Shown here: in pieces, positions 2,725 through 38,467 of the stretch
Layout of the letters: every line of letters starts with the position of its first letter
Numbering within the stretch: the stretch's first letter is position 1
Position numbers and translations under genes: made by a program
Origin: a virus
Strand: one strand, 5' to 3'
DNA: 40,406 nt
IMG/VR virus record: IMGVR_UViG_3300037296_000136
Coordinates: 1-40,406 of that record
The notes under the pieces: model-generated
Seen by the model: only the letters and a program-made list of their open reading frames with translations
The model's database searches: none
Told to the model about the DNA's origin: nothing

Positions 2725-2751
2725 CCACCTTCTATCTTTCTGTCTTTCTTT

Positions 2752-2787
2752 CCCCGGCTTGGTCTCTTCACGGAAGCCCTGCCGGGG
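2752..2787 (+). terminator. Hairpin terminator candidate after the accessory island
   Basis: A 7-bp perfect stem, CCCCGGC (2752-2758) with GCCGGGG (2781-2787), is followed by TTTGTCGTT. The 22-nt loop contains the GGAAGC box of the late-promoter candidate, so the end of one unit and the start of the next overlap. The T-run is short, so termination strength is uncertain. Confidence 0.5.
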
Positions 2788-2802
2788 TTTGTCGTTAAAT
2801 CC
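2772..2802 (+). promoter_or_regulatory. Late promoter-like element, copy 1
   Basis: GGAAGC at 2772-2777, an 18-nt spacer with G at position 14, then TAAATCC at 2796-2802, followed five bases later by AAAAG. It is one of six elements with identical spacing. It lies 29 nt upstream of the tail fibre ATG. I infer a -35/-10 pair for a phage-encoded sigma factor; a structured RNA is the alternative. Confidence 0.6.
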
Positions 2803-2831
2803 CTGTCAAAAGAAAGAAAGACAGGGAACCC

Positions 2832-3788
2832 ATGGCACTGCCTGAGACCTACACGCGAACGACTTCCTTTACCGAAGCTCAGGCCGAAGCTCCTGATGTC
2901 CCTCAGTCCGGTGTTGATCTGGACCGCGAGTTCGACAACGCCGGCTCTATTCTAAACGAGCTACGCTCCAACCTCGCTAAGATCCAACGTGACGACGACA
3001 AGCTGCGCAACGGTGTGGTCCATTTCTATTCTCTCTCCCAAGAGGTTCTGGACTTCATTACCGCCAATGGCGGCTCAGGCGTGTTTGTCCCAGCCGTTGG
3101 GGATGATGGCGAAGCCCTGCCCGATACGGGCTCTGGCGGCTCTACTGGTGGCTCTGGCGCGGTATACTTCCGTCAGCTACTGGATACGCCCAACTCTTTC
3201 ACCGGTGCAGCTGGCAAGATTCTCCGTGTCAATGATTTGGAGACGGGTTTTGTCTATGACGACGAGACCAGTGTCGAGGTCAAGTTCAACGACCTGACGG
3301 ATACACCTGAGATCTCGGAGGCCAACGCTGGCTTGTTCGCACGCTCAAATGGAACGGTCATTGAGTTCGCTGCCCTGCCGATTGATCCCGATGGCGCATA
3401 TGCACGCCTTGATGAGGAAAATGATTGGACCGGCCAGTCACAAAAGAACCTACATCTGAACAACTACTCAGAACAGATCGTGGACCTGGGCACAGCCTCT
3501 GGCACGATTGAGCTGGATGCTCAGGCGGGAAACATGTTCCGGCTCAATGCAAACGGGAACTGCCTGTGGAATATCGTCAATAAAGAAGCAGACAAAGGCT
3601 TCTCATTCACTGTGCGCCTCACAAGCACCGGCACGAACGGTCACACCTGGTTCTCCGGTATCGACTGGGGCGACCATGGCGAGCCAGTGCTGGAAAGCGG
3701 CAAGACCGCGGTCCTGAGCTTTGTCGCGTGGGATGAGGGTTCGGTTGACGGCTTCATTACCCGATACGTAGCACCTGCGGTCGAATGA
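2832..3788 (+). CDS. Tail fibre protein
   Basis: The 318-residue product looks like a host-binding fibre. Its first 75 residues, with an FTEAQAEAP segment and a helical DREFDNAGSILNELRSNLAK stretch, resemble a virion-attachment domain. A glycine-rich linker (GSGGSTGGSG, about residues 98-107) follows, then repeated F-x-D-L-x-D-T-P motifs. The C-terminal 110 residues have the pattern of many phage fibre tips: VDLGTASGTIELD, then FRLNANGNCLWNI, then FSFTVRLTSTGTNGHTW, then VLSFVAWDEG. The ribosome binding site is AGGGAA. It is preceded by a promoter-like element and followed by a larger spike gene with its own element. Family assignment is from overall pattern, not a catalytic motif. Confidence 0.7.
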   Translation: MALPETYTRTTSFTEAQAEAPDVPQSGVDLDREFDNAGSILNELRSNLAKIQRDDDKLRNGVVHFYSLSQEVLDFITANGGSGVFVPAVGDDGEALPDTGSGGSTGGSGAVYFRQLLDTPNSFTGAAGKILRVNDLETGFVYDDETSVEVKFNDLTDTPEISEANAGLFARSNGTVIEFAALPIDPDGAYARLDEENDWTGQSQKNLHLNNYSEQIVDLGTASGTIELDAQAGNMFRLNANGNCLWNIVNKEADKGFSFTVRLTSTGTNGHTWFSGIDWGDHGEPVLESGKTAVLSFVAWDEGSVDGFITRYVAPAVE

Positions 3789-3797
3789 TACAGTAGC
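3784..3797. repeat. Partition-site-like sequence at the fibre gene end
   Basis: AATGATACAGTAGC is the exact reverse complement of the 14 bases at 28664-28677 within the candidate parS repeats. It spans the fibre stop codon. It is immediately followed by a GTAGC/GCTAC palindromic region, GCGTAGC-N7-GCTACGC (3796-3816), which forms a strong hairpin. Binding by the partition protein is a guess based on identity alone. Confidence 0.35.
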
Positions 3798-3805
3798 GTA
3801 GCAAC

Positions 3806-3836
3806 AGAAGCTACGCGCTGGGCTGCGGACAAGTCC
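3806..3836 (+). promoter_or_regulatory. Late promoter-like element, copy 2
   Basis: AGAAGC at 3806-3811 (one change from GGAAGC), an 18-nt spacer with G at position 14, then CAAGTCC at 3830-3836 and AAAA four bases on. The first box straddles the loop and stem of the GCGTAGC/GCTACGC hairpin. It is 24 nt upstream of the ATG of the large tail spike gene. Confidence 0.55.
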
Positions 3837-3860
3837 CGTTAAAACAACGAGAGACGAGTA

Positions 3861-6620
3861 ATGTTCGCACCCGGCCGCACACGATTAGCATCAACCAGTG
3901 ACTATACCGCCTATCCTGATGTCGAGATCATTGATCCCGTTACTCCCGCGCCGCGTCCGGATCTGCCTCCGACTTATTCCGGTCCAAATCAACCTGATGT
4001 GCCCGGTGAAGATGACTGGCGCGAGGACACGCCCGACGAGGACTTGGACCGCGATGACATCGACTCCTCTCAGTCCCACAGCTTGCAGCGCGTGCGCCTA
4101 TTGCGCACCGTCCCTAGTGCCGTCGTCTCCGTTGGGAATGGCGTAGCCGCGCATCGCCCGGTCTTCCAAGGCTCCACGGTCAACTCTGATGATCTGAATT
4201 TCGACAACCGCTGGTTCAACGTTCAGACAACTGGCCTGAACAACCCACGCGAAGTCGCGGTGAAGTCGGATGGCACAGCCTATGTGATCGACGCCGAGGG
4301 ATTGAAGACCTCAACGGATGGATCGACCTTTACAGCTGTCAGCATGGGCAACACCGATCCGGTCCAGCCTATCTCCCTGTCTTTCTTTCTTTCTGAGGGG
4401 GAGGAGTGCCTGGCCGTTCTGACGATCGACAACGTTCTGTATTACTCGGACACTGCACAGGAAGTCTTCACGCGGATTGCGTTGGCTGATGTTGCAGCTG
4501 CATCCTCATTTGACGTGCCGGTTCAAGCTATCTGCGTGCGCGCTCTGGGCGGCGTTCTAGGCGTGCTGGTGAATGATACGACCTCGCACCGGGTTATCTA
4601 CTCGGACGCGCCTGAGGCCCCGGAAAAGTGGGTCTCCGCTGGATTTGGCGACGATGGGTCCAGCGTCCTGCGCGTGATGGGCGGAGATCTAGCTTATGAG
4701 CTGCCCGGCACAGGCGGTGATGCAGCTCTGCTGCCATTCTTCCACGGAGATCTGAGCGCAGCTGACAAAGGCAAGTGGCAGTATGAGCCAGACAGCAATG
4801 CGCACAGCCCTTTGGACCCTGATGGTATTCTCAGTGCGGCTGATCCGGGCTCGCCCTTTGAGGCGCGCAACGGCGCTCCTGTTCCTTATCCGGATTCAAC
4901 AGATGCGGCGCGGGTTGTCGGCTTATTCAGCGCGAAGACAATCGGCGTTCCTGCTAAGGCCGGCATTCGCATGATCAATCAAGACTGGAATGTTGCCGAT
5001 CAGAACTTCTCCATAGCAGATGAAGGGCAGTGGTATGCGACAAATGACAGTGGGACGCTGACAGTTGAAGGCGTGAGCAGTTCAATTATTACCCTTGGCC
5101 GTGATCAAAAGATTGAAGGGACAGAGGTAATTGTGCTTGGAGGTGCGAAGGTCGGAGATCGTCCTGTCTATATCAAATACACGAATATTAGGAACGATTT
5201 TGAAGATCCTGGTGATTATCTCATCATGAGGTCCAACAAAACTTTTAGTTTTATCTCCGATCGCACTGATAGCGACAGCAGTCTCTATGGCATTATAGCG
5301 ATGGATATTTCATTCTTCTACGAGGACAATGATGAGCCAGCCTTGATCTCAGGTTCATTCTATATAAACAATTTGTCCGATTTTTTTCGTGAAGGTTATG
5401 GATTAGAGTGCGCGGATGGTTCTGCAATTCTTCGTGCTGATACTGGTTATACATTGACGCCTGTTCCCGCAGGAATGATGAGCATCATTTCTCATTATCG
5501 TAAAATCAATTCCAATGGTGGCGACAGGGCCGTTTGGATAGACATGGAAAAATCATCCGGTTTCCGGATGCTACTAGATTTGCGGCATGGAACAGTGAAT
5601 TACGGATTTCGCGTGAGTGAAACCAAGGACGCTGTCGCCACTCTGGATATGAACGGGAAAATCTTTCAGGGATATCCGGTATCTGGAAGTGCAAACACCA
5701 GTGTGCCATTAATCAGCAAGCCTGATGATACCGGGGACATAGGACTGCAAGCTGTCACATTGACCTACTATGGCGGGGACAATGCACCACTAACACTTGC
5801 TGAGCGCGTAAACCTTGAAGCCGATAGCACTATCACAATGCCGGTCACGGTTTCACGCACGCAGATTGGCGAGCTTGTGGAGACAAATGACATTCACTCC
5901 ACGCCGGATGCGTTCAGCCAGATATCAGTAAACGCTCCTGTTGGAGCCCTGGATGAATACGGGGACTTTGTTCTCGGCCATTACGCTGAGCTATCGTTGA
6001 ATGGTAGCAGCGGCATCGAGTTCTCTGATGTCTCACTCAGGTATGTTGCTCGCAATGAAACCAAGGCCGCCGGCGATCTCATGGTGGGCGGCGATGGCCT
6101 GACCTTAATCCATTCGTCAGATCTGAAAACGTTCGAACCGATTGAGATCTCTGGCGGCGTATCCGACGCCTCTGTCCTCTTTCTTTCTTTCAACAACGTG
6201 ATGAAGGTTGGACTGAGCAAGGCATCCGAGCGCGACAAGTCCGCGGTATACTACTCGCAAGCTGACGGAGCTTTAAAGGTCTATGACCTGCCGGGTATCC
6301 CATCCTGCATTGGTATCGACCGCGTGGCCGGAGAAGACTTCCTTCGCACAGCAGATCCAGCACAGGCCGTATTCGAGATCAGCCGCACCGATGATCATTC
6401 TGTGGATTTGGGTTTCATTTCACGCGGCACGTTTGAAGTGTTCTTCCCGCAAAAGCCCGTCGAAGTCGAAGTAATCTCAACCTTTGAAGGAACAATCCAG
6501 CAGATCGAGCAAAACGGGGCAGAAGAGTGGGTCATCCGCTTTCTGAACGGGAATAAAAAGCCCCTCGCCCACGCATACAAAAATGGAATTGAGCTGATCG
6601 AATACGTCAGAACGGTATAA
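3861..6620 (+). CDS. Large tail spike / receptor-binding protein
   Basis: The 919-residue product is rich in beta strands. It has a proline- and aspartate-rich N-terminal arm (residues 1-75). This is followed by sialidase/BNR-like propeller motifs such as SDGTAYVIDAEGLKTSTDGS (about 134-153), with a related HSSDLKTFEPI near 750. Residues about 395-640 (bases roughly 5040-5780) are visibly more AT-rich than the flanks and use different codons, as if this central part had been exchanged. It sits between the first fibre and terL and has its own promoter-like leader. A host-binding or surface-polysaccharide-degrading role is likely, but no catalytic residues can be assigned. Confidence 0.65.
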   Translation: MFAPGRTRLASTSDYTAYPDVEIIDPVTPAPRPDLPPTYSGPNQPDVPGEDDWREDTPDEDLDRDDIDSSQSHSLQRVRLLRTVPSAVVSVGNGVAAHRPVFQGSTVNSDDLNFDNRWFNVQTTGLNNPREVAVKSDGTAYVIDAEGLKTSTDGSTFTAVSMGNTDPVQPISLSFFLSEGEECLAVLTIDNVLYYSDTAQEVFTRIALADVAAASSFDVPVQAICVRALGGVLGVLVNDTTSHRVIYSDAPEAPEKWVSAGFGDDGSSVLRVMGGDLAYELPGTGGDAALLPFFHGDLSAADKGKWQYEPDSNAHSPLDPDGILSAADPGSPFEARNGAPVPYPDSTDAARVVGLFSAKTIGVPAKAGIRMINQDWNVADQNFSIADEGQWYATNDSGTLTVEGVSSSIITLGRDQKIEGTEVIVLGGAKVGDRPVYIKYTNIRNDFEDPGDYLIMRSNKTFSFISDRTDSDSSLYGIIAMDISFFYEDNDEPALISGSFYINNLSDFFREGYGLECADGSAILRADTGYTLTPVPAGMMSIISHYRKINSNGGDRAVWIDMEKSSGFRMLLDLRHGTVNYGFRVSETKDAVATLDMNGKIFQGYPVSGSANTSVPLISKPDDTGDIGLQAVTLTYYGGDNAPLTLAERVNLEADSTITMPVTVSRTQIGELVETNDIHSTPDAFSQISVNAPVGALDEYGDFVLGHYAELSLNGSSGIEFSDVSLRYVARNETKAAGDLMVGGDGLTLIHSSDLKTFEPIEISGGVSDASVLFLSFNNVMKVGLSKASERDKSAVYYSQADGALKVYDLPGIPSCIGIDRVAGEDFLRTADPAQAVFEISRTDDHSVDLGFISRGTFEVFFPQKPVEVEVISTFEGTIQQIEQNGAEEWVIRFLNGNKKPLAHAYKNGIELIEYVRTV

Positions 6621-6633
6621 AGAAAGAAATAAA

Positions 6634-8322: not shown

Positions 8323-8323
8323 C

Positions 8324-8354
8324 GGAAGCCCCCTACCCTTGCGCGTGCAAATCC
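8324..8354 (+). promoter_or_regulatory. Late promoter-like element, copy 3
   Basis: GGAAGC at 8324-8329, an 18-nt spacer with G at position 14, then CAAATCC at 8348-8354 and AAA five bases on. It starts one base after the terL stop and ends 23 nt before the portal ATG, leaving just enough leader for the GGAG ribosome binding site. No strong hairpin overlaps this copy, which favours a promoter over an RNA element. Confidence 0.6.
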
Positions 8355-8377
8355 ATGGCAAACGCTGTGGAGATAAC

Positions 8378-10399
8378 ATGCGCAAGGAAGATGAAGTGGA
8401 CGACAGCCGGTCGTCCTTGGTCAATCGCTGGGTAACGGAAGTCAAAGCTGCTGAGCAGTTTTGGAAGCCGCAGTTAGACCGCATGCGCGAAGGCCAGTCC
8501 TACGCGCGCCATGGCTGCAACAAAGCCAACTGGGATCCCCGTGAGAAGTATACGGTTAACCTCGTTAAGAAGCATATCACGAACCTGACGAATGCAGTCT
8601 ATGCTAAGAACCCGGCCCCTGAGGTCGAGGTGAATAGCAAGATCGAATATCAGTATTGGGACGGCGACGCCGGAACGAAGATGATGGCGCAGCAAGCGTT
8701 GGGTCAGGTCGGCGGCGACATCAATATGCTGCATATGCATGCGCCGCAAATTGCAATGATCCTTCAAGATATCCAGCAGGCCGATGACCGCATCTCGCGG
8801 TTGAAAAAGATGGGCAGGACCATCGAGATCCTGTTCGGAAATGCGCTCAAACAGAACAAGGGAAAGCAAGGGATCAAGGGGGCGGTGCGCCGCGCCGCGA
8901 CCTGCGGTGTAGCATATGCTAAGGTTGGCTATCAAAGGGAGATGGATCGCCGGGCCGAGGACAACGAGGCCAATCTATCGGATGCACGCGCACGTCTGGC
9001 TGTGATCGAGCGACTGAAAAATGATGCGGACGCTGGCGACATCTCGGAGTCAGACGCTGAGTATGAAGAACTTTCCCTATCAATTGAGCATTTGCAGAAT
9101 GAAAAGGAAATCATCCTACGCGAAGGCCTGACGCTGACGTTCCCGCGATCGACAGCGATCATCCCGGACACAGCACTGGAAGATCTGAACGGCTTTGCCG
9201 GCGCACGGTGGGTTGCCGAGAAGTTCATGATGACCCGCGATCGCATCGTGGAATCCTTTGATCATGATGTCAGCGGCTATGCCAAAAAGGTTAAGTCCGA
9301 GACGGACGTTCGACTGGCCCGCGGCGAGCAGCGCAAGGACTCTCAGGAGGCCTATACGGTCTATGAGATCTGGGATCGTAGCACTGGCATGCGTCTGGTT
9401 GTCTGCGAGGGATACCCTGACTTTTTGCAGAACCCTGTGGAGCCTGATGTTTTCATCGAGGACACACTGCCATTTTTCGCACTGACACTGAACGATGTTG
9501 AGGACGAGGAAGATCCATTCCCGCCGTCAGACGTTGAGCTGCTGCGTCACCCTCAGGACGAATATAACCGCGCACGCGATGGTCTGGCCGATCACCGGTA
9601 TGCCAACCTGCCCCGCTGGTTTTACCAGGACGGTGCTGTTTCTAAAAAGGATGCTCAGGCTTTCGCGAGCTCATCTCCTTGGAGCGTCGTTGGCGTAAAG
9701 ATCGACGGCACGCAGGACTTGGACAAGGTGTTCAAGCGCGCCCCGGTCCCCGGAATCGATTGGAACCTTTATGGCACCAGCGACATCATGGACGACATGG
9801 TGCGCGCAGGCGGAACGCCGGAGTCCAGCTGGGGCGCGATGAACGCTAATGGATCTGCGACCGAAGCCTCTATCGCTGAGGACGGCCGCGTCTCTGCAAT
9901 GTCCTCTGCAATTGATGATCTGGACATGTGGCTATCTGATATTGCCGAAGCATCCGGCCGGATCTTCATGCGTGAGATGAGCCTCGAGGAAGTGAAGCGT
10001 ATCGCTGGACCAGGCGCGGAATGGTATGAAAGCCAGACCGCTATGGCTGACATGGTGCAGGAAGTTCACCTGACCATCAAGGCAGGCAGCTCGGGCAAGC
10101 CGAACCGTTCTAAGGAGCTGGCAGCTTTGGAGCGCATGATGCCCTTCATGATGCAGATGCCGGAGGCAGATGTCCCGAAGATTTGGGACGTGATGCTGCA
10201 AGCATTGGGCACCAACTTCCGCGCCGCCGATTTCTTAAAGCCAGGCGCGCCTTCTATCGCCGCTCAAAACGCAATGGCGACCGGAGCTGGGTCAGCCGAG
10301 GGCATGCAAGGCGGGATGAATGCGCCGACCGCAGGGCCTGCGCCAGGCGGGCGCACAATGCCAGGCGACGTCCAGAACAACGAGACACGGATGGGATGA
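8378..10399 (+). CDS. Portal protein (P22-like)
   Basis: The 673-residue product would form the dodecameric ring through which DNA enters and leaves the head. The N-terminal region has a tryptophan-containing helix and the NLVKKHITNLTNAVY segment, followed by KNPAPEVEV, as expected of podovirus portals. A long helical crown is suggested at the C-terminus, ending in a glycine/methionine-rich tail. An upstream TTG at 8339 keeps the frame open, but ATG 8378 with GGAG upstream is the better start. The position directly after terL and before scaffold and capsid is the standard order. The P22-like label rests on length and pattern. Confidence 0.85.
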   Translation: MRKEDEVDDSRSSLVNRWVTEVKAAEQFWKPQLDRMREGQSYARHGCNKANWDPREKYTVNLVKKHITNLTNAVYAKNPAPEVEVNSKIEYQYWDGDAGTKMMAQQALGQVGGDINMLHMHAPQIAMILQDIQQADDRISRLKKMGRTIEILFGNALKQNKGKQGIKGAVRRAATCGVAYAKVGYQREMDRRAEDNEANLSDARARLAVIERLKNDADAGDISESDAEYEELSLSIEHLQNEKEIILREGLTLTFPRSTAIIPDTALEDLNGFAGARWVAEKFMMTRDRIVESFDHDVSGYAKKVKSETDVRLARGEQRKDSQEAYTVYEIWDRSTGMRLVVCEGYPDFLQNPVEPDVFIEDTLPFFALTLNDVEDEEDPFPPSDVELLRHPQDEYNRARDGLADHRYANLPRWFYQDGAVSKKDAQAFASSSPWSVVGVKIDGTQDLDKVFKRAPVPGIDWNLYGTSDIMDDMVRAGGTPESSWGAMNANGSATEASIAEDGRVSAMSSAIDDLDMWLSDIAEASGRIFMREMSLEEVKRIAGPGAEWYESQTAMADMVQEVHLTIKAGSSGKPNRSKELAALERMMPFMMQMPEADVPKIWDVMLQALGTNFRAADFLKPGAPSIAAQNAMATGAGSAEGMQGGMNAPTAGPAPGGRTMPGDVQNNETRMG

Positions 10400-10407
10400 A
10401 AAAAGTG

Positions 10408-10432
10408 GGGGGAGCGCGGAAGCAGCTCCCCC
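10408..10432 (+). terminator. Strong hairpin between portal and scaffold genes
   Basis: GGGGGAGC (10408-10415) pairs with GCTCCCCC (10425-10432), an 8-bp GC-rich stem with a 9-nt loop that contains GGAAGC. No T-run follows. It may be a partial terminator, a processing site, or simply overlap with the promoter-like element. Confidence 0.4.
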
Positions 10433-10448
10433 TACTGCCGTCAAGTCC
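10418..10448 (+). promoter_or_regulatory. Late promoter-like element, copy 4
   Basis: GGAAGC at 10418-10423, an 18-nt spacer with G at position 14, then CAAGTCC at 10442-10448. It is 30 nt upstream of the scaffold ATG, so it would serve the scaffold and major capsid genes, the most highly expressed in most phages. Confidence 0.6.
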
Positions 10449-10478
10449 CAGACGTAACAACTCGGAAATGGGCGATAA

Positions 10479-11414
10479 ATGACCGAAGACGCGACGCCAG
10501 CGGATTTCAACGAAGAAGACCAGATCAACGATCAGGTTGAGATCTTGGACGATAACACCACCGAAGAGGTGGATGAGCAGGAAGCAGCTATTGAGGCAAT
10601 TCTGGCAGTTCGCCGGGAAGCCGAAGGTGCAGACGGCGAGACAGCGGATTCGTCCGACGCTGATGAGGATGACGACACGGAGGCTCTCAACGGAGATGCT
10701 GTCGAAGAGGATGATACCTCCGAGGCAGATGACGAAGAGGACACCAGGTTCGACAAAAACCCACGGTTCCAGCAGCTCATTCGTGAGCGAAACGAACTGC
10801 GTGAGGCGGCGTCGAAGGGACAACTTACGGACGAAGACCGCGAGTTGCTGGCTGCAATCAAATCGTATCGGGATAACCCCGATGGCGCGATCAAAGCCTT
10901 AAACCCAATTCTGGAAGATCTCGGTGCTCTGTCCGGATCCGGACCTTTGCCTGACGACTTAGCGGAAGCGGTCGAGATGGGAGAGATCTCGGAGCAGTAT
11001 GCAAGAGACTTGGTAAAAGCCCAGGCCCATCAGAAGGCCGCTACTGCACGACAAGAGCAATATGAGCAGGAGCAAGTGCGCCGCGCTCAGGAGACCCACC
11101 TTACTGAGGTGCGTAGCCGATACACCGAGATCGAGGCCAAGTTCCGCAAGTCCGATCCTGACTACGACAAGAAGCAAGAACTCGTTCAGAGCCTTGCTCT
11201 CCGGATGGCTCCGGGCGGCGTCAAGTCTGCTGACCAATTGGTCGAGATCATGACGGCGGCAAAGAAGAAGGTCGATGAGGCCTACGGAGTTGCCAAGCCT
11301 AAGCCCAAGCCGGTCAGGCCAGTCTCAGGTCAAGCACCAACCCGCACCCAGCGTAAGCCTCAGTCGTATGATGATATCATCAATGATCGTCTGAGTCAGC
11401 CGCGAGCCAAATAA
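10479..11414 (+). CDS. Capsid scaffold protein
   Basis: The 311-residue product is strongly acidic in its first 90 residues (runs of Glu and Asp around DADEDDDTEAL). It continues with helical, coiled-coil-prone stretches around residues 95-120 and 170-215, and ends in a basic proline/lysine tail (KPKPKPVRPV). This charge layout is characteristic of podovirus scaffolding proteins, which fill the procapsid and contact the shell through a basic C-terminus. It lies between the portal and capsid genes, the usual place. Assignment rests on context and composition rather than sequence motif. Confidence 0.8.
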   Translation: MTEDATPADFNEEDQINDQVEILDDNTTEEVDEQEAAIEAILAVRREAEGADGETADSSDADEDDDTEALNGDAVEEDDTSEADDEEDTRFDKNPRFQQLIRERNELREAASKGQLTDEDRELLAAIKSYRDNPDGAIKALNPILEDLGALSGSGPLPDDLAEAVEMGEISEQYARDLVKAQAHQKAATARQEQYEQEQVRRAQETHLTEVRSRYTEIEAKFRKSDPDYDKKQELVQSLALRMAPGGVKSADQLVEIMTAAKKKVDEAYGVAKPKPKPVRPVSGQAPTRTQRKPQSYDDIINDRLSQPRAK

Positions 11415-11429
11415 TAAAAAGGAAAAACA

Positions 11430-12491
11430 ATGGCTCTTACAACTGCTGAGATTCAAGACATCTCAAATCGCACATTGGACTTTCACGTTCGCGAAAGCGA
11501 AGTGCATTTCCAAAACATCCAGGATCGCCCACTTCTGCGTGACATGAAGAAGAACATGAAGGACTTCCCAGGGACAAAAGAGTTCCTGACCATGGATTAC
11601 CAAGAGTTTGCCGGTGGCAATTTTGGCGGCATCGAATCGGAAACCGACAAGCTGACGTTCGAGAACTACCACTTGAACAAAAAGCTTCAGTATTCCTACC
11701 ACGAGCACTTCTCTGGCCTCAAAGTCAGCATGAAGGAACTCGAGCGTCGGGGCATTGATGTCAAGGATACGTCCAACGGTTTTAAAGGCGCATCTCCGGC
11801 TACTGGCTCGGAAAAAATTGCACTGCAAAGTGTGCTAAAAGAGAAGAACGCTGCACTGTCGGAAGACTGGGCATCGGGTATGAACCGTTACCTGTGGGCT
11901 GACGGCACAGCAGACGCCAAGGGTATGGCCGGTATCACCGCGCTGATCGTTGACGATCCCGATGCTGCTGGTCTGACCATCGGCGGCATGACCAAGGTGG
12001 ATAGCCCTTATTGGACTAACCGTGCAAACGTTGGCATGACTTGGACACGCGCACAGGCTGGCGACTTCCTGTTGTTCGAAACCATCCAAGATGAGCTGAT
12101 CCAGCTGCGTCGTTACGCTGACGGCCGCACCCCAATCCACAAGGGTTATGCTGGTTCTGACATGATGTCCGCGCTGCGGGCTGAGCGTCGGGCAATGGGC
12201 GTTGGCGAGCAGAACGGTTTCACTGGCACGAAAGACGTCAGCGTCGGTGCAGTCGTCATTGATTCGCTCGTTGTCGAGTATGACCCGTCACTAGACGATA
12301 TGGGCATGACCAAGCGTCTCTACATTGTTGACCATAAGTCGATCAACCTGTGGTGCCTGCAAGGTAAGGATATGCGTATCCACGCCCCCGCGTCGCCACA
12401 CGATGAGCTGGTCTTCTACAAGGGTCTTCTGACCTCTGGTCAGGTGGCCGCATCGAGGCGAAATACTAGTGCGGTCCTCGCCTTCACTTGA
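11430..12491 (+). CDS. Major capsid protein
   Basis: The 353-residue product fits a podovirus major capsid protein. It has a mixed alpha/beta composition and an early RPLLRDMKKNMKDFPG segment. A mid-protein pattern, GMAGITALIVDDPDAAGLTIGG followed by YWTNRANVG, is commonly seen in shell proteins of this type. It begins 16 bases after the scaffold gene with AAAAAGGAAAAA as ribosome binding site. It is followed by a GC-rich terminator hairpin, consistent with a heavily expressed gene. I see no separate decoration domain. Confidence 0.85.
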   Translation: MALTTAEIQDISNRTLDFHVRESEVHFQNIQDRPLLRDMKKNMKDFPGTKEFLTMDYQEFAGGNFGGIESETDKLTFENYHLNKKLQYSYHEHFSGLKVSMKELERRGIDVKDTSNGFKGASPATGSEKIALQSVLKEKNAALSEDWASGMNRYLWADGTADAKGMAGITALIVDDPDAAGLTIGGMTKVDSPYWTNRANVGMTWTRAQAGDFLLFETIQDELIQLRRYADGRTPIHKGYAGSDMMSALRAERRAMGVGEQNGFTGTKDVSVGAVVIDSLVVEYDPSLDDMGMTKRLYIVDHKSINLWCLQGKDMRIHAPASPHDELVFYKGLLTSGQVAASRRNTSAVLAFT

Positions 12492-12506
12492 TCGGGAAAT
12501 AATTGG

Positions 12507-12526
12507 GCGGGGGATTTTTCCCCCGC
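12507..12526 (+). terminator. Terminator hairpin after the major capsid gene
   Basis: GCGGGGG (12507-12513), loop ATTTTT, CCCCCGC (12520-12526), then TTAAA. An outer imperfect stem pairs GATCGGGAAAT before it with ATTTCCCAATC after it. As no promoter-like element is seen before the next gene, this probably attenuates rather than stops transcription. Confidence 0.65.
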
Positions 12527-12578
12527 TTAAACATACCCATTTCCCAATCACTTGAAACCGAAAGAAAGAAATACAGAA

Positions 12579-12905: not shown

Positions 12906-12909
12906 ATGA

Positions 12910-13575: not shown

Positions 13576-13590
13576 GAGCAGGATAAAACC

Positions 13591-15515: not shown

Positions 15516-15763
15516 TGGCAAACATCGCAATTTTGGACGACAATGATATTGTCATTGATATCGTTGTCGTCAGTAACCGAGACATCAAAGATGAGAGCGG
15601 AGTTGAGCAGGAAGAGCTTGCCATTGCTTTTTGTGAAGAGAACATCGGCCCAGGCAATTATGCAATGACATCGTATAATGGGAACATTCGCGGCGTCTAC
15701 CCTCACCTGGGCATGAAGCTGTTCCGTGACCGGGATGTCTATGACTGGCCTGAGGAAGCCTGA
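15515..15763 (+). CDS. Small fibre-associated protein, conserved type
   Basis: The 82-residue product begins MANIAILDDNDIVIDIVVVSN, has an internal Glu-rich segment and carries the block YAMTSYNGNIRGVYPHLGM. I recognise this general pattern from small proteins encoded near structural genes of marine phages; their function is not established to my knowledge. It overlaps the adhesin stop codon (TAATG) and is followed two bases later by the nozzle gene. It could be a fibre tip cap or chaperone. Confidence 0.6.
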   Translation: MANIAILDDNDIVIDIVVVSNRDIKDESGVEQEELAIAFCEENIGPGNYAMTSYNGNIRGVYPHLGMKLFRDRDVYDWPEEA

Positions 15764-15765
15764 TC

Positions 15766-17769: not shown

Positions 17770-17773
17770 GACC

Positions 17774-17804
17774 GGAAGCCCTCGGGCTTCCCGTCATCAA
17801 ATCC
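17774..17804 (+). promoter_or_regulatory. Late promoter-like element, copy 5
   Basis: GGAAGC at 17774-17779, an 18-nt spacer with G at position 14, then CAAATCC at 17798-17804. Here the first box is in the stem of an 8-bp hairpin, GGAAGCCC (17774-17781) with GGGCTTCC (17784-17791). That hairpin could also terminate the upstream unit. The downstream gene starts 27 nt later. Confidence 0.6.
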
Positions 17805-17831
17805 AACGCAAGAACAATAAGTGGAACAACC

Positions 17832-18527
17832 ATGTTAACTACATCGCCAGGCTTTTCGCCGACTCCGCCTAGTGCTGCTGATTTGTCTGCTCGCATGGCC
17901 GACATGCGGATCAACATGGACAACGGCCAAAGCATTAATATTCCCGGTCAACAGATTGATCGCATTCGCGAAGGCGACCAGAACCTCGGAGGTTTTGTCG
18001 ATCGCATCGCGGGTGCCGGCCAGGAATACCAGGATAATCTAGCTGCACAGCGTGAGCAGATTAATGGCCAGGTGGAAAGCCAGGCGAACCGCGCCGGTTA
18101 TGACGCTGAGACTGCATATCGCAACAACGCACAGCAAGAGACGCGCTCAGCCTACGATCAAACCCGCGAGCAAGACACATACAGTGCATTTGGATCCGGT
18201 CAGAACGGCGGGTCAGCTGCACAGATCCGCACGGCGAATGTCTTTGGATCATACCAGGCGCGCCAGATGGCTGATGAGATGGCGGCCCTGACGGCCGGTG
18301 ATCAAGCCCGCGGTCAAATCTACGCTCAGGAAAGCATGCTCAACGGAGCTGCGGATGTAGCGATGGGGATGGGCTACCAGAACGAGACCAACCTTTTCAA
18401 TCTCTACAATCAAACGAAGTTTCAGGGGCCCGACCCCATGTCCGTTTATCTGGATGACCTCTTCGGACAAGCACAACAAGAGGCCGCGCTCTACGGCGAA
18501 GGCATCGACCCAAGGAGCATTTTCTAA
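17832..18527 (+). CDS. Internal virion protein A candidate
   Basis: The 231-residue product is rich in glutamine, asparagine, alanine and aspartate and almost cysteine-free. It shows helical stretches such as DNLAAQREQINGQVESQANRA split by flexible segments. This composition, and its place ahead of three similar genes, match ejected internal proteins of podoviruses. Its stop overlaps the next start (TAATG). No enzymatic motif is visible. Confidence 0.6.
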   Translation: MLTTSPGFSPTPPSAADLSARMADMRINMDNGQSINIPGQQIDRIREGDQNLGGFVDRIAGAGQEYQDNLAAQREQINGQVESQANRAGYDAETAYRNNAQQETRSAYDQTREQDTYSAFGSGQNGGSAAQIRTANVFGSYQARQMADEMAALTAGDQARGQIYAQESMLNGAADVAMGMGYQNETNLFNLYNQTKFQGPDPMSVYLDDLFGQAQQEAALYGEGIDPRSIF

Positions 18528-19207
18528 TGGCCAATTTATATCAAGGTTATAACACCCAGCAGGACGCCATCACGAAGTATGGCGACAAGACCGCTGATCG
18601 CATTAACGGCGTAAACCGGACGAACCAAGGCGAGATCCAAAAGGCGCGCGATGCGTTCGGCAACATGTCAGGCAGATTGTCCGGGTTCTCCAACGATAGC
18701 GCAAAGCGTGCAGCCGCAGCGCGGTCCAAGATGATGGGTTCAGTGGCTCAGCCGCAGTCAGTGCCAACCTCAGGCCCAGGAGCTGCTCTGGCGGCCCGCA
18801 CAGGGGCTGTGAACACAGTGCAGCTCGGCACCCAAGCTGATGCAATGGCGACCGGCTACGGCCAGTCCACTGCACTGGCAGACATGGCACGTCAGAATGG
18901 GCTTGATGGCCAGGCAATCACCGACGCTCAGCGCGTCATGGGGATAGGGTATGATAGCATAGGCTACGGTAGTGTAGCTGATCAGGATAAGTTGAACGGC
19001 GAGCTTTCTGTCGGGGAGATCCAGCGTCAGCTGGCTTTTGGTCAGCGCAATGTCACAGCGCAAAAGGCGATCGGTGACAAGACGAGAGCAGATGCACTGA
19101 TTGCACAGCAGCGCGAGCAACAGATCGCACAGCAGAAGGCCGAGGCCTTAGCTCAGCAGCAGAAATACGCAGAGCTGATGGAACAACTCTACCGCAGCCA
19201 GTTATAA
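18527..19207 (+). CDS. Internal virion protein B candidate
   Basis: The 226-residue product is alanine/glutamine-rich. It has a long C-terminal helix (ALIAQQREQQIAQQKAEALA, about residues 188-207) likely to form a coiled coil, and an N-terminal half with small residues. It is coupled to the preceding gene by a one-base overlap. A 16-bp sequence matching the partition locus lies within it at 18963-18978. Probably an ejected protein; no known domain is recognised. Confidence 0.6.
   Translation: MANLYQGYNTQQDAITKYGDKTADRINGVNRTNQGEIQKARDAFGNMSGRLSGFSNDSAKRAAAARSKMMGSVAQPQSVPTSGPGAALAARTGAVNTVQLGTQADAMATGYGQSTALADMARQNGLDGQAITDAQRVMGIGYDSIGYGSVADQDKLNGELSVGEIQRQLAFGQRNVTAQKAIGDKTRADALIAQQREQQIAQQKAEALAQQQKYAELMEQLYRSQL
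18963..18978. repeat. Partition-site-like palindrome inside a virion gene
   Basis: GCTACGGTAGTGTAGC is the exact 16-bp reverse complement of 28694-28709, the palindrome GCTAC-N6-GTAGC beside the parA promoter region. Upstream TATGATAGCAT also resembles the TATCAT-containing iterons. The host gene encodes an ordinary coding segment here, so the identity is not explained by protein homology. Confidence 0.4.
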
Positions 19208-19221
19208 AGAAAGAAAGACAG

Positions 19222-20217
19222 ATGGCACAGAACCCTTTTTACAACCCGAATGATAACTATGGCACTGGCTTTGGCGGTATCGCTGCGAAGGCTGGATATG
19301 TTGGCGCGTCGAATGATGCCCGCAAAACTAAGCAAATGACGCGACAGTTCGAACAGGACGACTTCCTGTCCCGCTTAGCAGGTGCGAAGGCGGCTGCTAG
19401 ATCAGCAGGCGGAAGCGGCGCGGCTGATCTGGCGAAGGCTCAGTATGACGCCATGCATGAGAAGCGCACATGGCAGGTGGATCGGGATGTAGCCGACGCA
19501 GATAATAAGCTCAAAGAACAAGAATGGTCCGGCCGAGAGAGCGCAGAGGCAGCAGCTCGCAGCGGTGATCCATACGCGTTCCTTGGTCAAATGTTTCGTG
19601 CCGGAGAGGTTGCAAATCTAGAAGGTGCAAACCGCTACCTGAATGCGAATAACCCGAACATCTCTACTGAGGAGTTGGTCAACAGCAACGCGGCCTACGG
19701 TAAGTTCACTGGCGAAAATGAATATGCTTCATATGACCACATGATTGACCCAGAGTTTGGTGCAAAAAGTCGTAACACAAATAGGATGTCCTTTACAGAG
19801 CATAACAAAGTTAGGGAGGCTGCAATGAGCGCAGCATCTGGCGGGGACGTGGAAAAATACCAAAGACGACTGCAGGAAAACCCGGCTCTTAATGCAGCAG
19901 TAGAGCAGCATATCAATGAACGAGCTGCCGCAGGAGATTTTGCGGGGGCAATCTCAGGAGTGCCGCAGATCGTAAAAGCTTACGAGGACGCTATTAAGCC
20001 CACTTACAGTAAGGGTGTTCAGGATCTGATCGACTTCCGAGACAGGAAAATGAAAATGACGGAAGGCATGGGAAAAATGAAGGCGGCTGGGTTTGAGCTG
20101 CCTCCAAGCGGAAGCATAAACGACATAAGCCTCCAAGAACTATTTAAAGACCCGAACGATACAGCTTGGTTTGACAAGCTTAATGGGACGGGGGCTCACA
20201 AGTTTTTCACGGAGTAA
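19222..20217 (+). CDS. Internal virion protein C candidate
   Basis: The 331-residue product has a Gly/Asn-rich start (PFYNPNDNYGTGFGGIAAKAG). It continues with alanine-rich helices and charged segments (EKRTWQVDRDVADADNKLKE). The C-terminal part becomes more AT-rich in DNA and lysine-rich in protein. Translation would rely on the purine run AAAGAAAGAAAGACAG before the ATG. Position suggests an ejected or scaffold-associated internal protein. No recognised enzyme motif. Confidence 0.6.
   Translation: MAQNPFYNPNDNYGTGFGGIAAKAGYVGASNDARKTKQMTRQFEQDDFLSRLAGAKAAARSAGGSGAADLAKAQYDAMHEKRTWQVDRDVADADNKLKEQEWSGRESAEAAARSGDPYAFLGQMFRAGEVANLEGANRYLNANNPNISTEELVNSNAAYGKFTGENEYASYDHMIDPEFGAKSRNTNRMSFTEHNKVREAAMSAASGGDVEKYQRRLQENPALNAAVEQHINERAAAGDFAGAISGVPQIVKAYEDAIKPTYSKGVQDLIDFRDRKMKMTEGMGKMKAAGFELPPSGSINDISLQELFKDPNDTAWFDKLNGTGAHKFFTE
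20110..20140 (+). promoter_or_regulatory. Weak late promoter-like element, copy 6
   Basis: GGAAGC at 20110-20115, an 18-nt spacer again with G at position 14, then CAAGAAC (two changes from CAAGTCC) and AAA five bases on. Unlike the other copies it lies within a coding region, about 80 nt before the giant internal protein gene. It may be a degenerate promoter or a coincidence. Confidence 0.3.
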
Positions 20218-20220
20218 GAC

Positions 20221-23200
20221 ATGGCAGGATACAACGGTAACGGTCGGAACCTTTCTGACAGGGAACCAGAACAAGAGTTGAATCCTGCCTCAAAAGGTAA
20301 AATGCTTGCCGCCATTGAAGCCGAGCGTATGGCTCTCGAGGAGAAAAACAAGGGCTACGGCCTTGGCAATTTCCAAAGAGATGCGACCCTTGCAGTAGGG
20401 GGAGCCATACTTGATGCAGGCTACGGTGTTGCTCAAAAAGGTATGGAGGCGTCGCCTCATATCAATAAGTTTTTCAGCAAAGCGGGCCTTGATGCGAAGT
20501 ATGCGATGGGCTTCCTAAGTCCAGAAGAATACGATGAGCAGCTCAAGCAAGTTATTGCAATGCGCGAAATCGAAAAGATGGGCGTTGACTCGTGGAAGCG
20601 CGGTGCCGGCGAGTTGACTGATATGATGCAGGAAGCCCGAGAGGGTTTTGGTATCGGTGATCCTACAATGGTCGAAGATTTCATCCGTGCCGCTGCCCCT
20701 GCCGTAGTCGGTGGCACTATGGGTGCAAGTCGCATGGTTGGCTCAAAGCTCCTGAACCCAAAGAATACAACTGGGATCAAGCGCGCCCTTGATTTTACTG
20801 GGGGTATCGTTGGCGGCTTCGTTGGTGATTTCGCATCTACCCACACGGCCCGCAGTCATGAAAATACCAAGGGTCTCGGCAACGTTGTCGAGGACAAACT
20901 TGGATGGGAAAATATATTCGCAATTGATGAAGGCGACAGCGGCTGGGAAACCTCGTTCAAGAGGGCCGGCGAAGGCGCACTGATTGGTGGCGCGGCCGAG
21001 GGCGTGATGCGTGCTATTGGAGCTGGCTCACGATCCGTCAAAGCTTCCCGCTTGAAGGCAGCTGTCGAGGCTGAGAACGCTGCTGCGAAAAACATGGAAG
21101 ACTTCCCGGATATGGCAGGGCCGACTGCCGTCGATGACCTGTTCCCGGAAGAGATTATTGCGGATATGCCGCCACAGGCTATGCCTGCACCTACTATTAA
21201 ACGGCCGATGCCGCCGCAAGCTATGCCCGCTCCTACGGCCAAGCCGATGTCCTTGCGTCTACTACCTGCGCCGGAAGTTAATCCAGATGGTTCACTCGTT
21301 GCACGCGAGGGTGCTCCAATTAACATCCGACCTGATATGGTGTCGGAGCCTCAGGTTGTTTCCCCATCAGATCTCAGGACTAACCCTGCGCCTGGTGTTA
21401 AAGCTGTTATTGACGATGTAGTAGCTACGACTGATCCAATCCCCGCGCCCCGAGCAGATGCTGAGAGCCCGACGAAGAAGCGCGTCGCATTCAAGAATGT
21501 CGAAAAAATCCAGATCCCTGACAGTAATAGGGTAGCAGTGCGTGCGGCCGATATGCCGAGCACTAAGGTCGGTGCGTCTGCTATTCTAAAAAGCTATGAT
21601 TTTAGCAGGCCTATTGTGTCGGATAATTATATTTCTGACGGAGCTATGGTGTTTCGCAAGGACGCAGCCCCAGATTTGGCCTCAGCTTTCGAGGGATCAA
21701 GCAAGAAGATGGCTAGACAAGATGGCGAAATGGAGGGCGCCTTCGGAGGAGATGCTGATGTTTCCGTCGAGTGGATAGGTGGATCATCTTTAACGCGCAA
21801 CGCTGACAGGATCCAAAGTTACAGCATGATCGGGCGCACGCCTGACGGTCAGCTTGTTTCTATGAATCGTAATTACAAGCAGTATATCGACCAAAATGGG
21901 ATGGAGGCGCGCTACTTTTCTAAGGAAGATGGCGCAGGCAAGTTCATGGTATACAAGGGAGACCAGCAGGTCGGCATGGTTTTGCCCGTTCGTATTGAAT
22001 CGCTTGAAGCTATTGCGGCTAAGATCGAGACACCTACTGCTGCAAAAGTGGAAGCCGCCCCCTCTCCAAAGAGTAATGCTCCCAAGGCCAAAGCAATTGC
22101 GCCAAAGACTGCCGCTGAGATGAAGGCTGAGATGAGCGATGTCCAAAGAAATGCACACTGGAACGGTTTGGACCAGCCGATCAACAGGGCTGTGGTCAAA
22201 GCCAATTACTCGCCAGAGAGTGAAGCAATTCGCGACCTGGCCGTCGAGGACCTATATCGCCTAGCTGCTGAAAACAACGGCAAAGGGATAGTGGATCGCA
22301 AGCCGATCAAGGAGAAGATCAAGGCACGCAGCGAGCAGGCAATCAAGGACATCGAAGCGTTGGGTGTGCCTGATGCAAAGAAAGCACCCGCAAAGAAAGC
22401 ACCCGCAAAGAAAGCACCCGCAAAGAAAGAAACAAAGACAGCTGCCCCAAAGAAGGACGAGGCCCTCTCCGCCAAGGCGGTTACTGCGAAGGATATCAAG
22501 AACGCTGATGATCTCATCAAGCGACTGACAACTCGTGCGCGTGAAATTGGCGGGGATGATTTCTCTCTTTCTTTCGTTCGCGGCCTGGTCGATGGCAAGG
22601 GTGAGGCATCATTCAATCGCGCAGCCCGTGTGATGAAGGTGTCTCTGGACGCTGATGATCCAATGGCAGCACTGGATCACGAGATCGTTCACGCATTGTG
22701 GAAGGGTCTATCGAAGGCCGATCGCGGTGCACTGGAACGCGCCGGCAAGACATGGATCAAGAAATACGGGATCGACAAGCACGAGCACTACTCCAAGCTT
22801 TCACAAGTCGAGCAGCTGGAAGAGGCTGTCGCGCACCATATGGCAGCTATCACAAGAGGTGATATCAAGCCGGCCGGCGCAATGCAGCGTATCTACGATA
22901 CCATCAAGAACGGCCTCGAGCGGGTTCGCAGCTTGCTGAACAATGAGGGCTTCCAGTCATCCGATGACGTGATGAAGAAGATCCGCAATGGCGAGATGAA
23001 AGGGAAAGTTGACGCACCCAAAGCGGTCAACGCACCGAAAGGCGCGCTGGATTCAACGAGCACACTGGCTTATTCGATGCCTCCCAAGGGCGGACTAGGT
23101 TCAGGCAAAGGCCATTTGAACAAGGCATACGGCCGCGACGTCGAGGGCTTATTCGAGATCGGACGCACAGTATCCACCAAGTTTGCCAGCGCGGTTGATG

Positions 23201-25551
23201 CAGTAAAAAAGATCAAGGCAAACCCGGCCGGAGCCCGCGCATCAGTCAAGGACTTGTCCCTGGCAATGACATCGCATGCGCGCTCCGGTGTGTTCTTCTC
23301 TCAGGCCTCCAACACATACGCGCGTATCCGCAAGGCGGCATACCATAACCGCCCCACTGAAACGTTGGAGAAGTTGCAGCGCAAGCTGGTCAAGGTGCGC
23401 GATGGGAAAATATCCAGAGAGACATACAACGAGACCGTCACGAAGATGAACGGCAGGGTAAACAAGGCGTTCGAGACAGCAATGAAGCCGTTCGAAACCA
23501 AGGCTGACTTGGAGAGCCGCCTGATTATCCGTGACATCCTGGTCGAGACAGATGGAAAGCTGGCTGCGAAATACGCGGACACCGAGATTGGAGAGTCTGC
23601 AAAGATTCTACGCAAGATGCTGAAAGAACTGGTCAAGTCCGCACGTAAAGAGGGCATGGAAATTGGATCTGTTGAGAACTATTTCCCGCGTATCTTTGAT
23701 ATGGATAAGGCAATCAAGAACCCTGAGGACTTCAAGAAAGCTGCGCGGGAATACTTCACGGCTCATCGGCCCGAGAATGCTAAGACTGCCAAGGATATCG
23801 AGGGTTATGTCGATGACCTGTATAGCACGATGTGGAGCGGCAAGCACGGCTATGCTGTTGGCGACAACCCACTGACCGCATTCAAAGCCAAGAACGGTGC
23901 AACCCAGCACGCGAAGCCGCGTCGCCTGGGGCCGGAGGCTGACATGTTCTTCAAGGAGTTCCTGGAAACAGACCCAATGGTTGTGCTGCCAAAGTATGCG
24001 AACGCCATCGCTGAGAAGGCTGCATGGGAAAAGCACTTCCCGGATGCGGAAATGAAGGAGCTGTTCGAGCAGCTAGTCAACGAGGGTAACGAGGAGTTTC
24101 TGGACGAGATCCAGAAAGAGATCCTGAGCAGCACGGGTAATCGCAAAGGTTGGGGCGCAGACAGTGCCGTCGTGCGTAACGTCGTATCTGCTTTGCAGAC
24201 ACTGGCATCGGTAGCCCTGCTGCCGCATACCGTGATCACCTCCTTGTCAGAGCCACTACTGCTCTTTGTTCGCTCCAACTGGGCGGGCGATGGGCAGTCC
24301 TTCATGGGCAACGTCAAAGACCTGCACAAGAACTTCTCCGAAGCATACAAGGGCGTGGACTCCACGTCTGAGGCCCGCGAGATGGCGCGCTACTTGGGTC
24401 TGATCATGGGTGATATGGCTGACTCTGTTCTGGCTGCACGCATGGGCGGCGGTCTGGATACTGGCTGGTCCCAGAAGATCACGAACACATTCTTCCGTGC
24501 CTCCATGCTGTCGCAGTGGACTGATGCAAACCGCGTGATGGCCGTCAAAGGTGCGCGCCGTTCTATCGACCTGTCGATTAAGAAGGCAATCGAGAAGGGC
24601 GATAAGCACATCATCAAGGACCTTGCTGCCATGGGCATCGGAAAGGAGCACCTTGCCGAGCTGAAAAAGCTTTTGGATAATGCCGATGTCGATGAGTATG
24701 ACGAGAAGTTCATTAGCTGGGAGCAGCTTGATGAAGCAAAAGACATTGGCGAGGTATACGGCAACGCCGTGCGCCGTTTCACTGAGGACGTGATCGTATC
24801 TCCAACGGCCGTGGATCGTCCACGCCTGGCAACGCACCCGATCTTCAAGCCGGTCTATGGCCTGACAGCTTACATGTTCGGCTTCCAAGGCCGGGTCATG
24901 AACCCAAACCTGAAGCGTGCAGCTGAGGGCGCAGGTCGCATCAAGAAAAACGCTAAGGCTGTAAAGGCTGGCGAGATGACTGGCAACGAAGCGGCCATGG
25001 ATGTTCTTCGTGACATGGGTCCACTGCTGGCATTGCTGACAATCATGCCGGCCGCACAGGCAGGCGCAACTGAGATCCGCTCAAAGCTGGTTGGCTCCAA
25101 AGGCTACGATGACATGGAGACCGCGGCTTACATTCAGCTGATCGCATCACGTGCAGGTCTACTTGGTAGCCTTGATTATCCAATAAACGTGCTGACCGGT
25201 GTGCGTTATGAGAAAGACATTGCAACAGCTCTGTCTGGTCCAGCACCGTCTGTCGTTTTGGATATCGTCAAGAACGGATACGTGGGCATAACCAACGCAC
25301 GCAAAGCTGCAAAGGAAGGCAAGGACGGCACGAGCGCGAAGCGCATGGTTGCCGACGCTGCGTTCGATATGTTGAAGCCTATCGTAAACACATCAATCTC
25401 TTCGTTCTACCCAATCGGCGGCCGCGTTATGCAAGGTGCAACTATGATCGGTGTTCAAGGCGTATCGCGTAAGTCTACACAAGAGGGCTTTGTGAACTAC
25501 TTCGGCGGCGAGAAAAAAGAGCGCGGAAAGAAAGAAACCCTGCGCTGGTAG
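20221..25551 (+). CDS. Giant internal virion protein with HExxH metallopeptidase motif
   Basis: The 1776-residue product is the largest gene and lies where podoviruses encode ejected internal proteins. Seen in it are small glycine-rich hydrophobic segments near residues 155-215, and proline repeats with PPQAMPAP twice near 317-341. A lysine-alanine repeat (KKAPA three times) lies near 720-735. A zinc protease motif HEIVH follows at 820-824, with a likely third ligand in an EEAVAHH helix at 867-873. A long helical C-terminal half holds a hydrophobic stretch LLALLTIMPAAQAG around 1600. The spacing resembles gluzincin-type sites. I infer a multifunctional ejected protein that may open the cell envelope or cleave a host target. 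The N-terminal third is less GC-rich than the rest. Confidence 0.75.
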   Translation: MAGYNGNGRNLSDREPEQELNPASKGKMLAAIEAERMALEEKNKGYGLGNFQRDATLAVGGAILDAGYGVAQKGMEASPHINKFFSKAGLDAKYAMGFLSPEEYDEQLKQVIAMREIEKMGVDSWKRGAGELTDMMQEAREGFGIGDPTMVEDFIRAAAPAVVGGTMGASRMVGSKLLNPKNTTGIKRALDFTGGIVGGFVGDFASTHTARSHENTKGLGNVVEDKLGWENIFAIDEGDSGWETSFKRAGEGALIGGAAEGVMRAIGAGSRSVKASRLKAAVEAENAAAKNMEDFPDMAGPTAVDDLFPEEIIADMPPQAMPAPTIKRPMPPQAMPAPTAKPMSLRLLPAPEVNPDGSLVAREGAPINIRPDMVSEPQVVSPSDLRTNPAPGVKAVIDDVVATTDPIPAPRADAESPTKKRVAFKNVEKIQIPDSNRVAVRAADMPSTKVGASAILKSYDFSRPIVSDNYISDGAMVFRKDAAPDLASAFEGSSKKMARQDGEMEGAFGGDADVSVEWIGGSSLTRNADRIQSYSMIGRTPDGQLVSMNRNYKQYIDQNGMEARYFSKEDGAGKFMVYKGDQQVGMVLPVRIESLEAIAAKIETPTAAKVEAAPSPKSNAPKAKAIAPKTAAEMKAEMSDVQRNAHWNGLDQPINRAVVKANYSPESEAIRDLAVEDLYRLAAENNGKGIVDRKPIKEKIKARSEQAIKDIEALGVPDAKKAPAKKAPAKKAPAKKETKTAAPKKDEALSAKAVTAKDIKNADDLIKRLTTRAREIGGDDFSLSFVRGLVDGKGEASFNRAARVMKVSLDADDPMAALDHEIVHALWKGLSKADRGALERAGKTWIKKYGIDKHEHYSKLSQVEQLEEAVAHHMAAITRGDIKPAGAMQRIYDTIKNGLERVRSLLNNEGFQSSDDVMKKIRNGEMKGKVDAPKAVNAPKGALDSTSTLAYSMPPKGGLGSGKGHLNKAYGRDVEGLFEIGRTVSTKFASAVDAVKKIKANPAGARASVKDLSLAMTSHARSGVFFSQASNTYARIRKAAYHNRPTETLEKLQRKLVKVRDGKISRETYNETVTKMNGRVNKAFETAMKPFETKADLESRLIIRDILVETDGKLAAKYADTEIGESAKILRKMLKELVKSARKEGMEIGSVENYFPRIFDMDKAIKNPEDFKKAAREYFTAHRPENAKTAKDIEGYVDDLYSTMWSGKHGYAVGDNPLTAFKAKNGATQHAKPRRLGPEADMFFKEFLETDPMVVLPKYANAIAEKAAWEKHFPDAEMKELFEQLVNEGNEEFLDEIQKEILSSTGNRKGWGADSAVVRNVVSALQTLASVALLPHTVITSLSEPLLLFVRSNWAGDGQSFMGNVKDLHKNFSEAYKGVDSTSEAREMARYLGLIMGDMADSVLAARMGGGLDTGWSQKITNTFFRASMLSQWTDANRVMAVKGARRSIDLSIKKAIEKGDKHIIKDLAAMGIGKEHLAELKKLLDNADVDEYDEKFISWEQLDEAKDIGEVYGNAVRRFTEDVIVSPTAVDRPRLATHPIFKPVYGLTAYMFGFQGRVMNPNLKRAAEGAGRIKKNAKAVKAGEMTGNEAAMDVLRDMGPLLALLTIMPAAQAGATEIRSKLVGSKGYDDMETAAYIQLIASRAGLLGSLDYPINVLTGVRYEKDIATALSGPAPSVVLDIVKNGYVGITNARKAAKEGKDGTSAKRMVADAAFDMLKPIVNTSISSFYPIGGRVMQGATMIGVQGVSRKSTQEGFVNYFGGEKKERGKKETLRW
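22375..22429 (+). repeat. 15-bp tandem repeat encoding KKAPA units
   Basis: GCAAAGAAAGCACCC is repeated three times (22375-22419) and a fourth partial copy ends in GAAAG. Read in frame it gives alternating KKAPA units, a histone H1-like basic linker within the giant internal protein. A variable copy number between relatives would be expected. Confidence 0.85.
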
Positions 25552-25554
25552 CGC

Positions 25555-25585
25555 GGAAGCCACCTCCGGTTGAGCAGGCAAGTCC
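25555..25585 (+). promoter_or_regulatory. Late promoter-like element, copy 7 (lysis genes)
   Basis: GGAAGC at 25555-25560, an 18-nt spacer with G at position 14, then CAAGTCC at 25579-25585 and AAAA four bases on. It starts three bases after the stop of the giant protein and ends 21 nt before the endolysin ATG, so it would drive the lysis cassette. Confidence 0.6.
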
Positions 25586-25606
25586 CCTGTAAAACCGGGG
25601 GAACCG

Positions 25607-38445: not shown

Positions 38446-38467
38446 GACATCAATGGAGACAATTAAG

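Follow-up and report, generated by a model that had tools for sequence, protein, structure and literature searches.

The window, a 40,406-nucleotide stretch of viral DNA analysed over its whole length, carries a strict bipartite element in eight plus-strand copies that accompany virion and lysis genes. These elements are very probably the late promoters of the phage, and their sequence context suggests that they are probably read by a sigma factor of the phage itself. At four copies, RNA that reads through from upstream is predicted to fold promoter-side sequence over the ribosome site of the next gene, and the folding models leave it evenly balanced whether this acts as a translational lock. 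The explanation taken whole (late promoters, a phage sigma factor, likelier the one encoded at 39625-40299, and four translational locks) appears fairly likely to us. The copies are:

230-260, plus strand: probable further copy, CAATTCC with one departure, 22.1 bits; predicted start 266
2772-2802, plus strand: putative late-promoter element, copy 2; predicted start 2808; precedes the tail-fibre-like gene 2832-3788
3806-3836, plus strand: putative late-promoter element, copy 3, AGAAGC variant; predicted start 3842; precedes gene 3861-6620
8324-8354, plus strand: putative late-promoter element, copy 4; predicted start 8360; precedes the portal gene 8378-10399
10418-10448, plus strand: putative late-promoter element, copy 5; predicted start 10454; precedes the scaffold-position gene 10479-11414 and the major capsid gene 11430-12491
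17774-17804, plus strand: putative late-promoter element, copy 6; predicted start 17810; precedes genes 17832-20217
20110-20140, plus strand: probable weak copy, CAAGAAC, 20.3 bits; predicted start 20146
25555-25585, plus strand: putative late-promoter element, copy 8; predicted start 25591; precedes the endolysin gene 25607-25987

An earlier, sequence-only reading of this DNA had reported the six copies from 2772 to 25555 other than the weak one as all plus-strand, all intergenic and 21-30 nt ahead of a start codon, and a pattern scan and leave-one-out matrices confirmed this. The pattern RGAAGC-N18-YAARTCC has six exact matches on the plus strand and none on the minus strand of the 40,406-base record, vs none in 100 dinucleotide shuffles. 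Because this exact pattern was itself fitted to the six sites, we added the leave-one-out test, in which held-out copies scored 18.5-24.8 bits and the top non-site on either strand 11.9-15.0 bits. A 17-position matrix, built from the conserved columns only with measured background and used at a cut-off of 20 bits, identified eight sites on the plus strand of the whole record and none on the minus strand; by chance, such sites arise at 0.005 per shuffled plus strand, and 2 Mb of unselected phage DNA contained one. Only the complete 17-position consensus stands out; blind counts of short word pairs (6+3 and 5+4 letters) did not distinguish the motif from shuffles.

The two additional sites differ in standing. 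The copy at 230, absent from the sequence-only reading, probably precedes the small terminase gene if the terminase starts at 295; the upstream frame 43-294 has a coding signal of -0.05 bits per codon, vs a mean of 0.34 and a minimum of 0.01 for known genes. The weaker copy at 20110, which that reading had proposed, holds up as a site but is not intergenic: it sits in the 3'-terminal part of gene 19222-20217 and 80 nt ahead of gene 20221-25551, which encodes 1776 aa. A matrix that includes the variable spacer positions leaves it outside the top 30, whereas the conserved-position matrix with measured background recovers it. The 1776-aa ORF is a single reading frame of about one eighth of the genome in the position of ejection or internal virion proteins, with a weak match in one relative only.

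The eight copies share the extended consensus C[G/A]GAAGC-N13-GY-N3-YAARTCC-N5-RAA. When the second box is numbered -12 to -7, the first box falls at -36 to -31 with an 18-bp spacer. Invariant in all eight are GAAGC, G at -17, a pyrimidine at -16, AA at -11/-10, C at -6 and a purine at the predicted +1, six bases past the last C of the second box. The G at spacer position 14 and the pyrimidine at position 15, described earlier for six copies, thus hold in 8/8; C precedes the first box in seven copies, and A occupies +3 in seven. A layout with an 18-bp spacer is ordinary sigma-70-family promoter geometry and exceeds the length of promoters for single-subunit phage RNA polymerases. In the mechanism that we propose, the host RNA polymerase core with a phage sigma factor, likelier the RpoH/SigB-like protein encoded at 39625-40299, would bind the element with CGGAAGC as -35 box and YAARTC as -10 box, assisted by GY at -17/-16, and would start transcription at the +1 purine.

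Among the phage genes we recognise those for terminase, portal, major capsid and endolysin, and the minus strand encodes a ParA-like ATPase and other early-type genes. The six exact copies occupy intergenic gaps of 55-107 nt, with predicted leaders of 16-25 nt. Between 2725 and 25606, seven intergenic gaps reach 50 nt or more, and six of them contain the element. Each promoter would drive a short plus-strand block of virion or lysis genes, with early genes on the opposite strand. Geometry, strand, placement and the purine at +1 together argue well for the late-promoter reading, which the sequence-only reading had also offered. The exceptional gap (12492-12578), after the major capsid gene, has a symmetrical GCGGGGGATTTTTCCCCCGC hairpin instead of the element. 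Genes for tRNA-Phe(gaa) and tRNA-Leu(aag) lie at 1543-1721, in the late-strand leader region. The ParA-type partition ATPase (27947-28633; ParA_partition E 6.6e-29, under the family cut-off) is adjoined in the region 27741-29556 by two ORFs recognised by eye, one small and CopG-like, the other resolvase-like, and the record may be that of a phage-plasmid.

Two sigma-70-family proteins are encoded by the phage:

39625-40299, minus strand: sigma factor with Sigma70_r2 and Sigma70_r4 (Pfam) and a region-3-like segment; preferred candidate reader
38453-39052, plus strand: ECF-like sigma factor, region 2 alone recognisable

Reading of a -35 box requires sigma region 4, and contact at -17/-16 is usual for sigmas having region 3; for these reasons we favour the 39625-40299 protein over the ECF-like one, which has no recognisable region 4. 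If a phage sigma factor reads the elements, the reader is somewhat more likely to be this protein than the other. It resembles SigB/F/G, FliA and RpoH, and its single-sequence AlphaFold model, of middling confidence and confident in the C-terminal two thirds only, has sigma32 and SigB as top but weak fold matches; the model of the ECF-like sigma was too poor for use. The sequence-only reading had argued from a GGAAC-like first box to an ECF sigma, and this argument has proved weak. ECF promoters combine a GGAAC-type -35 with a CGTC/GTC-type -10 at 16-17 bp; here the first box, GGAAGC, is close and the second, YAARTCC, is unlike. Of that interpretation the late promoters stand, the ECF argument does not, and a phage sigma factor is the best reading of the genome, which combines a repeated, fixed-spacing bipartite element ahead of late genes on the late strand with a sigma-70-family protein that has region 4.

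Head-gene similarity, at about 30-38% identity, places the phage in a large group of podovirus-like contigs. The closest named relatives, Rhizobium phage RHph_N65 and Microcystis phage Mae-Yong1326-1 (TerL and major capsid about 29-33%), carry neither an annotated sigma gene nor a copy of the element. Among TerL and capsid relatives (160 loci, 50 whole records) we found no element sets, and the 50 records contained no sigma region 2; the search of related phages that had been suggested as a check therefore did not recover the element as a set. Exact motif scans of IMG/VR and of GTDB species gave single matches only and no record with several copies. In one relative the match lies where the scaffold gene would be, probably within coding sequence. 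A scan with both sigma proteins as queries gave no match, and searches of plasmids and phages gave distant matches only, the sole phage match at E 0.006. No relative turned up that carries the element or one of the two sigmas, so covariation of sigma with promoter could not be shown. Their pairing is consistent but rests on one genome: IMG/VR and GTDB species yielded no further record with repeated copies, and the head-gene relatives have no sigma factors.

We calculated the energy cost of freeing the ribosome site (-17 to +3), once in RNA from 75 nt upstream of the predicted start and once in RNA from the start itself. The cost was 17.8 vs 4.6 kcal/mol at 2772 (shuffled-upstream p 0.025), 10.2 vs 2.1 at 3806 (p 0.010), 21.1 vs 7.2 at 8324 (p 0.005) and 16.7 vs 5.4 at 25555 (p 0.005), read-through RNA being given before promoter-started RNA. 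These figures were stable under six other settings, and the cost drops while the 5' end shifts from about -30 to +1. No lock is predicted at 230, 10418, 17774 and 20110. Fisher's combined p is 2e-4 for the eight genes that follow an element, vs 0.13 for 17 control starts; a rank test of element genes against controls gives p 0.07. The predicted structures are:

2737-2827, plus strand: predicted read-through hairpin over the ribosome-binding site of gene 2832; arms 2737-2752 and 2812-2827
3776-3879, plus strand: predicted read-through helix; promoter spacer and upstream RNA paired with the start-codon region of gene 3861
8333-8399, plus strand: predicted read-through helix, CCTTGCGCGT with ATGCGCAAGG, over the portal start codon; the 5' arm is the promoter spacer
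25551-25636, plus strand: predicted read-through helix, CCTCCGGTT with AACCGGGGG, over the endolysin Shine-Dalgarno; the 5' arm is the promoter spacer

The promoter spacer forms the 5' arm at 3806, 8324 and 25555; at 2772, a 16-bp 5' arm lies just upstream of the element, and all four 5' arms end before +1. In read-through RNA the stretch upstream of +1 would be folded over the next gene's ribosome site, whereas RNA begun at the promoter would come without the 5' arm and leave that site open for translation. Tentatively, promoter and lock may even be built as one unit, in which the spacer DNA doubles as the anti-RBS arm and translation of several late cistrons, portal and endolysin among them, is confined to RNA of their own promoter, giving cistron-by-cistron late control by a new sigma-promoter pair.

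Genes 1051 and 2119, which have no element, also have ribosome-site hairpins. Small hairpins at 1018-1040 and 2091-2111 pair the Shine-Dalgarno with a TCCT-type arm (TCTCCTgatcagtcacaAAGGAGA and TCCTTTTcagttacAAAAGGA, respectively) ahead of ORFs 1051-1491 and 2119-2724, which look paralogous by eye; opening cost against shuffles gives p 0.025 for 1051 and 0.005 for 2119, and the hairpins are possibly translational repressor sites. On the minus strand, the leaders at 38349 (GTCCTG...CAGGAC) and 36516 (ATCCTT...AAGGAT) have similar, statistically weaker complementary arms around the Shine-Dalgarno (p 0.06 and 0.26).

The promoters may be correctly identified and the hairpins nonetheless have no part in translational locking, being incidental or acting on transcript stability. 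We take this possibility seriously: only 4/8 copies have them, the two non-element genes are similar, and the rank test stays at p 0.07. It accounts less readily for a 5' arm that coincides with the promoter spacer in three of four cases and ends before +1 in all four, with shuffled-upstream p of 0.005-0.025. The structured flanks (z down to -5.9 against shuffles) could also be taken to mean that the element is no promoter but serves RNA or DNA processing or regulation, for instance as a structured RNA, an operator or a recombination linker. We consider this very unlikely, because hairpin position differs from copy to copy, the orientation is always that of the late genes, and the fixed 18-bp spacing, the A at -11 and the +1 purine are promoter features. 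A single RNA fold shared by the eight copies was rejected (alifold energy 0), and an Rfam search matched only a tRNA, with no conserved, covarying fold of a structured-RNA family. The sequence-only reading had rightly seen no common fold in the hairpins and had missed the pairing of promoter-side RNA with the downstream ribosome-binding site at four copies. For the hairpins at 10418 and 17774, intrinsic terminators were rejected, a T run being absent downstream.

If the elements are promoters, a host rather than a phage protein could recognise them. Host RNA polymerase with an alternative sigma of ECF type would fit the GGAA of the first box, which is similar to known ECF GGAAC boxes; this is unlikely given that the phage carries two sigma genes of its own and that the strict consensus occurs only 27 times in 84,980 bacterial and archaeal species, once apiece in 27 unrelated records, with no genome holding a set. 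Still less probable is an arrangement like that of T4 middle promoters with MotA, where a phage activator would bind the first box and host sigma-70 would read the second. The -35 location of the first box and the start-site purines are compatible with it, but YAARTC is not TATAAT-like, the window has no more sigma-70-type sites than its shuffles, and two sigma genes make an activator unnecessary. Recognition by a phage sigma factor is the reading with which we compare known systems below.

The late promoters of T4 have no box other than a TATAAATA-type -10. The present phage shares with T4 and its gp55-dependent late promoters a late-promoter transcript that would come without the 5' arm of an RBS-hiding hairpin, and an endolysin among the genes with a known or predicted lock; here, unlike in T4, the arm comes from the promoter spacer itself at three of the copies. 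In T4 genes e, soc, 49 and I-TevI, the ribosome site is hidden in read-through RNA and free in late-promoter RNA (PMC3014915, PMC2988022), and a gene e-type arrangement is predicted at 4/8 copies of our element. Should the locks prove real, they would carry a mechanism known mainly from T4-type phages over to an unrelated phage whose sigma factors are of bacterial type, and the promoter sequence would be under double selection, as DNA and as RNA. The Bacillus phage SPO1 has a sigma cascade, gp28 and gp34, with one sigma per later class (PMC9429907), and its likeness to the present phage, by description alone, lies in having phage sigmas. In phiEco32, the phage ECF-type sigma gp36 drives middle and late genes, a resemblance to our case; the difference is that gp36, being without region 4, uses a single box (tAATGTAtA) and no -35 (PMC8948821).

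A close parallel in layout is the phiEco32-like Salmonella phage 7-11, whose sigma gp47 drives eight bipartite late promoters, GTAAtg-16-aCTA, before late genes (PMC8948821); we located this consensus before 8/8 genes in the 7-11 genome record. Both phages are podophage-type and have about eight bipartite promoters of one consensus with a spacer near 16-18 bp, serving late plus-strand genes with a phage sigma and early genes on the opposite strand (PMC8948821). The boxes differ (GTAAtg/aCTA in 7-11 vs CGGAAGC/YAARTCC here), as does the presence of two sigma genes here. Pairwise alignment of gp47 with the two sigmas was not significant (E 0.52 and 4.2), a comparison that can miss divergent homologues. 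With an assumed start, locks are predicted at two of the eight 7-11 promoters, 11851 (13.4 vs 5.0 kcal/mol) and 29282 (19.7 vs 3.6 kcal/mol), the latter just before genes that include an Rz-like spanin. A 2015 motif-only prediction of 7-11 promoters (PMC4331800) disagrees with the consensus mapped later, which is the main reason why our confidence is not higher. The class of system is already known, and this phage would bring new instances of it, namely its consensus, its two sigma factors and the predicted overlap of promoter and lock, offering a concrete candidate sigma-promoter pair of the type foreseen by the authors of the 7-11 study. The consensus is unusually strict and the sites are few, so the pair is easily tested in vitro, and tight, orthogonal promoters such as these could serve as useful parts.
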